From: Escallonia rubra
Taxonomy: Eukaryota; Streptophyta; Magnoliopsida; Escalloniales; Escalloniaceae
Reading direction: 5' to 3'
DNA length: 64,000 bases
Assembly (NCBI GenBank): GCA_033065855.1
Contig: JAVXUO010001387.1
Coordinates: 248,001-312,000, forward strand
Below the pieces are notes generated by a model that was not told the origin of the DNA, searched no databases, and saw only the letters and a program-made list of their open reading frames with translations. Shown here piece by piece: positions 1 through 7,718 of the stretch (position 1 is its first letter; the number at the start of each line of letters is the position of its first letter). The translations under genes and the position numbers were made by a program.

Positions 1-357
1 AGGTTCTTTATTATACATCGTGGAACAAAGTTGATTTTACAAGAATTATTATAAAAAGCCTGATTGTATTATCCGAAACTATTTTCATAGTCACGCGTTA
101 TTCTTAAATGAAAAGACTATAATGTATCGCATTTGAAAACTGTAACTAACTAATAAGAGTTCGTCTTTTGAATATCAAACCGCAGTGAGAATTGATAGAT
201 GGAATCCACTCTCAACTTTTTTCTCATCGAACAAGTTTAAAAGCTTATGAAGACGCTATAATGACTTTAGCAACTAATATATAAAATTTAAACGATGAAA
301 CAGAAAACGTGAAACATGAAACTCAAATGAAACCTTGTTTTTTCTGTGATGTATTTA
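1..357. other. A/T-rich left flank, no gene seen
   Basis: No open frame, RNA gene or recognisable repeat stands out. Its last nine bases, 349-357 (ATGTATTTA), are the left copy of the target-site duplication of the adjoining Mutator-like element. Confidence 0.6.
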
Positions 358-1481
358 GGATTAAATACATATAAAACCCCATACTTTGGGGTCATTTACA
401 CGGAACACCCTAGAGTTTGAATTTTGGTACGCACCACCCCAAACTTCCAATTATGGTGCGCATAACACCATTTAACGGTTTTTAGTCGATTTTTTGGGAG
501 TTTGTTAGAAGTCAGAGGGTACAAAGGTAACTTCCTCCATATGTGTCCAGTTCCCTCTGATCTTTGGCCGCCCTCTTCGGACTACTCCGCCTCTCATCAT
601 CCCCGTCATTGTCCTCCACCATCAAATTCGACCCCCTCAGCTCGAACGGTAAGAGTGGGAGCAACGAGTTCGGGGAAATCAAGTCTTAGTGCCATCAGAA
701 CGCGGGCCCTATGTTGATCACGTTAAGGGTTTGTCGCTGGGAAGTCGGTGGATAGGCGATACTGATAGGCGCGGTAATTGGGGGTGTCAATTAATTGGTC
801 TTGAAAGGGCGTCGTCAGGAGGATGAAGATGAAAGGGGGAAGGATGTAGAGAGGATGGCGTGTTTGGGGGTGAAAGGAGAGGTGGATGGAGGAGGAGAGG
901 GAGGGAGTGGGGGGTTAGGGTTTCACGGGGGGAGGGGGAGGGGGGGGGCGGCGACGGGGGGAGAACATGCCGATTGGTGGGGGGGCTGGGGGGAGTGGGG
1001 GGAGGGAGGGTGGCCAGGAAGAGTGGAAAGAGGAGGGGAAGGGGGAGGTGAGGAAATAGGTGATCGTGGCGGTGAGGGTGGGGGTAGCAGTAGAGGTGGC
1101 GGTGGAAGTGGACATGGTAGTGGCGGTGGCGGGGCCTTCGTCGGTGAGGGTGGTGGGGTGTGTGTGACGTGGCCGAAGAGGAGGCCGTCCACGTTGGCCA
1201 GGGCGGCGGAGGTGCAGGGGAGCAAGAAGACAAAGGGTTGACCAAGGATCTGGATCTTTTATAAAGGCAGGTCGTCCATGGCTGTCAACAAATACGTTTT
1301 AGTGAAGTGCCCATTTTGACTTTAAAATTATAACAGCCGTCTTTAGATTTTAAATTTTAACCGTTAAATGGTGCTATGTGCACCATAATTGGAAGTTTGG
1401 GGTGGTGCGTACCAAAATTCAAACTCTGGGGTGTTCCGTGTAAATGACCCCAAAGTATGGGGTTTTATGTACCTTTAATCC
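358..1481. mobile_element. Non-autonomous Mutator-like element (Pack-MULE) with captured gene fragment
   Basis: Long terminal inverted repeats of about 125 bp (358-482 against 1357-1481 reversed) are around 94% identical by eye and share the stretch CATACTTTGGGGTCATTTAC. The element is flanked by a perfect 9-bp direct repeat ATGTATTTA at 349-357 and 1482-1490. Long inverted repeats with a 9-bp duplication are the hallmark of plant MULEs. There is no transposase inside, so it is non-autonomous. The interior is very GC-rich and carries, on the minus strand, a decayed piece of a host gene. The right end lies only 109 bp before the IPMDH start codon, which fits the known MULE preference for the 5' ends of genes. 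The high similarity of the two ends suggests a fairly recent insertion. Confidence 0.9.
510..1279 (-). pseudogene. Captured, decayed FAM175/Abraxas-like gene fragment
   Basis: Read on the minus strand, an ATG at 1279 opens MDDLPL, then a stop (TAA), then a stretch with NVDGLLFGHVTHTPP. Other frames downstream give TLTATITYFL, IGMFSPRRR, FQDQLIDTPNYRAYQYR and finally VEDNDGDDERR followed by KDQRELD. From memory these match, in order, the N-terminal 250 or so residues of the plant FAM175/Abraxas-like (MPN-family) BRISC-complex subunit. Several frame shifts and stops separate the pieces, and the middle (790-1130) has decayed into G-rich low-complexity sequence. It sits wholly inside the MULE, so it is transposon cargo and not a working gene. 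The family call rests on remembered motifs and was not searched. Confidence 0.65.
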
Positions 1482-1590
1482 ATGTATTTAATGCCCAATG
1501 ACCAAAAAGCCCTCCTTAATTCTAGTATAATTTGTTCAAGCCCAGCCAGCCCCTTTTCACTCGCGGTATTCTGACTCTGCTTCACCAACA

Positions 1591-7718
<6,128 letters not shown>

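Follow-up and report, generated by a model that had tools for sequence, protein, structure and literature searches.

The window, by which we mean the whole stretch of 64,000 nucleotides of the Escallonia rubra genome analysed here, carries an intact gene for isopropylmalate dehydrogenase (IPMDH), a gene of leucine synthesis, at positions 1591-7718 of the forward strand. Assembled by hand on GT-AG splice sites, the gene has 11 exons and 405 codons, with a stop codon ending at 7718, and the first 208 residues of its product match "3-isopropylmalate dehydrogenase 2, chloroplastic" (5j34, 3r8w; E 3e-94), which we take to be the Arabidopsis IPMDH protein. When the IPMDH protein was searched against the genome, all 5 matches fell at the window locus, which is therefore the only IPMDH copy detected at that sensitivity; a second IPMDH gene for promoter comparison was not found in the 566-Mb genome. 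A degenerate copy of the start region of exon 2, including an AG, was observed in intron 1 (1899-2021 compared with 2028-2156), and this AG is a possible decoy splice site. The gene is preceded on the same strand by a native spacer (1491-1590), for which motif positions place a TATAATT at 1526 and a pyrimidine patch at 1550-1558, and beyond the spacer lies a transposable element of 1,124 bp (358-1481).

The element is bounded by a left terminal inverted repeat of 123 bp (358-480, + strand), which starts with GGATTAAA, and by a right terminal inverted repeat of the same length (1359-1481, - strand). The two repeats match at 116 of 123 letters, while the best of 20,000 random pairs of 123-mers drawn from the window reached 54/123. 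Both repeats are abutted directly by a perfect 9-bp target site duplication, ATGTATTTA (349-357 and 1482-1490), which would be expected by chance with a probability of ~6e-6, as calculated from the local composition; a chance origin of the repeats and the duplication was thereby ruled out. The preliminary description of this DNA had reported inverted ends of about 125 bp, a perfect 9-bp duplication and an element ending 109 bp upstream of the IPMDH start, and all of these were reproduced, with the IPMDH ATG at 1591 lying 109 bp past the element end. A search of the genome with the joined flanks of the element, as an empty site would read, matched only the window locus.

This element belongs to a large Mutator-like (MULE) family. 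Among the best 40 of 286 candidates that were scored, at least 8 full-length sisters of the window element were found at 83-93% identity, so that the same-genome sister copies for which the preliminary description had proposed a search do exist, complete with repeats and duplications. A pattern of 35 letters from the outer end of the repeat, with up to 3 mismatches allowed, identified 333 family ends in the genome (169 forward and 164 reverse), and the reversed control pattern gave 0 matches in either direction. When 39 loci were examined, both ends were present in 32; the other seven were the donor locus described below, L010, where no end was found, L015, whose two ends point the same way, and L023, L028, L035, L038 and L039, each with one end in the stretch taken. 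Of the 32 two-ended copies, 31 are flanked by target duplications, either of 9 bp with no more than a single mismatch (23 at 9/9 and 5 at 8/9) or of 10 bp without mismatch (3), and the one without a duplication, L030, sits within a tandem array. For comparison, when sides were paired at random 2,000 times, 0.9% of the pairs reached 8 or more matches. The left end GGATTAAA and the right end TTTAATCC were each present in 30/32 copies. Three of the loci, L018, L019 and L022, have the same flanks and duplication, which suggests a duplicated locus or redundant contigs, and they are therefore not independent. MULEs have been described as having target duplications of 9-11 bp and terminal repeats of typically 100-500 bp (PMC3310237); the window element and its family have duplications in this size range, and the repeats of the window element are 123 bp long.

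The family rearranges its interior. Among L033 and L037, and L018-L020 and L022, composite members were observed in which part of the interior of another subfamily lies inverted beside different sequence, as were members ~400 bp longer than their relatives. A head-to-tail tandem array, whose unit of ~1.27 kb consists of one family MULE and a spacer of ~273 bp, was also observed at G000:C1890:64951-87607 (L061, L062); its copies are ~93-95% alike over the stretch compared, two stretches of it having been read and the middle being known from search matches. Tandem Repeats Finder, with a period limit of 500, missed this array, which is revealed by the repeat ends and by self-comparison. MULE transposase domains are abundant in the genome (3309 first-look candidates), and among the 150 candidates scored none was shown to lie inside the repeats of this family. 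One family end, at C368:85929, has a SWIM zinc finger 3.2 kb further inward, on the minus strand at G000:C368:89098-89445 (L064 3099-3446; Pfam E 7.9e-11), and no partner for that end was found up to 96500. This locus is a possible remnant of an autonomous element, which we regard as a weak lead.

The interior of the window element consists of a fragment of a host gene (538-1284, - strand; element positions 181-927) flanked by subterminal sequences. The alignment with five sister copies from subfamilies without the fragment shows that the left subterminal sequence (481-537) is common to them, and the right one (1285-1358) is likewise common to sister subfamilies. A DNA search of the genome with the interior gave 19 matches, comprising 15 pieces in 12 element copies (including that of the window), 3 weak matches of 56-58 bits and, at C1345, a match 712 bases long. 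The C1345 locus was recognised as the donor because of the protein search with the fragment and because no family repeats were found in the 3.5 kb around the gene there (L010); for this reason the reading of all interior matches as sister elements was rejected. The donor has an uninterrupted open frame (C1345:44008-44988) for a protein of 327 amino acids beginning MDDLPLQKIQIPGPTLASLL, which matches the Pfam family MPN_2A_DUB_like (Abraxas MPN) with an E value of 1.1e-7 and 32.1 bits, against a curated cut-off of 27, and which had no match among solved structures. From the Pfam name, the donor may be the plant ABRAXAS orthologue, and we refer to it as an ABRAXAS-type gene. When the donor protein was searched against the genome, one of 30 matches fell at the donor itself and the other 29 inside the 12 element copies; the protein of the fragment also weakly matches C2267 (E 1.44, 35%).

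The fragment corresponds to donor bases C1345:44247-44993, 747 aligned bases that extend from 5 nt before the donor ATG to approximately codon 247, and the same donor piece is present in eleven sister elements. Identity to the donor is 89.2% for the window copy, which has exact stretches of 61, 34 and 31 nt, and 93.2% for the consensus of the 12 copies. It might still be argued that this is a plain non-capturing MULE or a foldback repeat with a G-rich interior that is gene-like by chance, since the interior is partly of low complexity and a Pfam scan of the frames from one sister copy and from the consensus gave no match, nor did the fragment frames match any solved structure. Such an origin is extremely improbable in view of the alignment of the 747 donor bases and of the protein matches that run across the fragment in 12 copies, and an interior without gene origin was rejected on these grounds. 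Because subterminal sequence and captured fragment together make up the interior, without an internal transposase, the element is non-autonomous. The window element is thus a Pack-MULE with a fragment of a host gene for an ABRAXAS-type MPN-domain protein. The preliminary description had used that term and had spoken of a captured host-gene fragment; the sisters, the target duplications, the terminal repeats and the repeat-free donor gene at C1345 bear it out. No prior report linking a Pack-MULE with Abraxas was found in our literature search.

The edges of the fragment record part of its history. The left capture edge is common to 11 of the 12 copies and is deleted in the remaining one (L013). 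In sister subfamilies that never show the fragment, other sequence stands at this position. At the left edge the MULE and the donor have CATA in common, an overlap that would fit a repair-type capture, of which it is no proof. Five sisters (L006-L009 and L012) retain more of the donor 5' leader, L008 and L009 retain more MULE sequence at the right edge, and the lineage of the window copy is without ~30 bp at the right edge, between two copies of TGGCTG, which we read as a probable deletion. A tree of the copies placed 0.070 substitutions per site between the donor and the copies and 0.050 on the branch of the window copy itself, with several internal nodes of low support (26-74). Since the donor was used as the outgroup on which it was rooted, the tree cannot itself test whether there was a single capture; the evidence for one is the left edge that the copies share. 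After its capture the fragment was amplified, and the insertion in the window is not recent.

The captured fragment is broken and non-coding: in the window copy it contains stops and frameshifts, and its protein matches lie in differing frames. The copies vary to almost the same degree in all three phases (4.3, 4.7 and 5.1%), and the differences between the consensus and the donor, counted by donor codon position, are 18/245, 14/245 and 25/246; constraint acting only on the donor would produce this slight excess at third positions. When all copies were taken together, C-to-T changes were found at 6.0% of CG, 8.1% of CHG and 3.4% of CHH sites, compared with any change at 2.6% of A/T sites. For the window copy the corresponding counts are 4/98, 8/80 and 8/413, and as 4/98 at CG sites compares with 22/525 at A/T sites, CG decay in this copy is not raised.

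These results suggest the following history. A non-autonomous MULE of a large family captured ~750 bp from the start of an ABRAXAS-type gene, together with the final bases of the 5' leader of that gene, most probably through repair or template switching within a MULE that was already there. The hybrid element then spread to at least 12 sites, presumably mobilised in trans by a transposase from elsewhere, and one hybrid copy landed immediately before the start of the single IPMDH gene that was detected, generating the 9-bp duplication. We hold this account of the identity and history of the element with high confidence.

The position of the window copy is not exceptional for the family. Outward-facing frames of at least 45 codons within 700 bp were listed at 28 further loci, with L019, L022 and L030 left out. 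The start of a PPR gene lies 44 bp beyond the element at L009 (Pfam), that of a FANCJ-like helicase 126 bp beyond it at L029 (E 1.2e-14, solved-structure match), that of a terpene cyclase family member 249 bp beyond it at L014 (E 5e-14, solved-structure match) and that of a RING-finger gene 613 bp beyond it at L006. The neighbouring start at L012 (205 bp) presumably resembles a golgin; the starts next to L012, L029 and L014 had no match in Pfam. A gene start with database support was therefore present within 250 bp at at least 3 of the 28 loci, the database comparison having covered a minority of the listed frames. With an assumed 35,000 genes, 0.43 loci would be expected within this distance (P for three or more ~0.01), a limit of 250 bp that was chosen after the distances were known; when the window copy, which had been chosen for its place, is added, the count becomes 4/29 and P 0.001. 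The Pack-MULEs of maize and rice have been reported to show an occupancy peak just upstream of transcription starts (PMC7337890). Because 3/28 loci are alike and because Pack-MULEs peak there in other plants, target preference can explain the place of the element before IPMDH. The element is thus one of a known kind in a typical place.

The proximity of one family member to a FANCJ-like helicase gene (L029 2072-2476) is a separate observation. FANCJ and Abraxas are both part of BRCA1 biology, and the presence of a FANCJ-like neighbour beside a member of an Abraxas-carrying family is probably a coincidence.

The preliminary description had conjectured that the element may have supplied or displaced promoter elements of IPMDH. 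TATA-like sites are located at 50 and 280 to the left of the element, at 370 in the left repeat, at 1260 in the captured fragment and at 1526 in the spacer, and everything to the left of 349 has been shifted by ~1.13 kb. The spacer is judged the likeliest place for the start, because its weak TATA-like site, which begins ~32 bp before the end of the pyrimidine-rich stretch, and that stretch itself remain, and because upstream ATGs argue against long leaders: a transcript begun anywhere upstream of 1278 would contain nine or more ATGs ahead of the one at 1591. On these motifs, the native 109-bp spacer would probably provide the main start, with the distal DNA pushed away by 1.13 kb and with little or modest change in expression. 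However, since the TATAATT of the spacer is weak and a TATAAAA is present at 280, it is also conceivable that the element sits within the 5' leader, or that transcription begins inside the element. For the leader to contain the element, the ancestral start would have been at ~312, with a pre-insertion leader that the coordinates put at ~145 nt, and IPMDH would now be expressed by read-through or from a switched start. Such an insertion would agree with the strong enrichment of de novo Mu insertions near transcription starts in maize (PMC7337890), but the same study found older Pack-MULEs to be depleted in gene bodies, and a read-through leader of ~1.28 kb would carry 22 upstream ATGs (316 to 1498, counted unspliced), which makes this possibility a doubtful one.

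Alternatively, the element itself might supply the IPMDH promoter, either from its terminal repeat or from the putative TATA-like site TATAAAGG (1260-1267, + strand), which would then be a TATA box created by mutations within the captured fragment and would direct a start ~30 bp past it. This site, which points at IPMDH, differs by two transitions from the TGTAGAGG of the donor. The TATAAA core is found in 9/12 copies, the others being TATAGA in L008 and L009 and AATAAA in L004; since most copies have it, the core is a family trait, with nothing specific to the IPMDH site and no adaptation there. It has been reported that the terminal repeats of maize MuDR and of Pack-MULEs carry promoters (PMC3310237), and that a japonica promoter of rice PsbS1 with a MULE-like insert exceeded the indica type in reporter activity (PMC4178011). 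Promoters of MULE repeats, however, are known to point inward, which at the right repeat would be away from IPMDH, and a transcript from ~1290 would run through eight ATGs (1368 to 1498) ahead of the real start, unless they were spliced out. We therefore regard a promoter supplied by the element as unlikely, and a main start in the native spacer is the reading that we prefer. It is very improbable that transcription of IPMDH driven by TATAAAGG through the antisense fragment gives rise to small RNAs against the ABRAXAS-type gene; if this were true, the level of the ABRAXAS-type gene would be tied to leucine synthesis. No prior report joining a MULE insertion to isopropylmalate dehydrogenase was found in our literature search.

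The general understanding of Pack-MULEs is unchanged by this element. What had been an unnamed "captured gene" is now a worked case, with a donor, a capture edge, a family that was amplified and an insertion at a gene of amino-acid synthesis of which a single copy was detected. At the IPMDH locus one could examine whether expression is altered by Pack-MULE insertions close to gene starts or whether these are simply tolerated. The element resembles the tomato PM-ZIBP family as described (PMC3310237), a multi-copy Pack-MULE family with the fragment of one donor gene, which is still present in the genome. The single-repeat PM-ZIBP member is 944 bp long, and the most frequent size class of Pack-MULEs in tomato is 1,000-1,200 bp (PMC3310237). 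In contrast to PM-ZIBP, the captured gene here is of the ABRAXAS type, and the window element has single terminal repeats, whereas PM-ZIBP was described for tandem ones (PMC3310237). A further likeness is found with OsMULE-JSS1, a MULE-like insert with a 9-bp duplication and inverted repeats of ~80 bp located 0.4 kb upstream of rice PsbS1 (PMC4178011); for that insert, insert-free alleles and reporter data are available, whereas the IPMDH element is known here from its sequence. Finally, the place of the window copy and of some sisters relative to gene starts resembles the peak upstream of transcription starts in the rice and maize surveys, which used transcription starts, whereas the present analysis concerns gene starts, in one family and one genome (PMC7337890).
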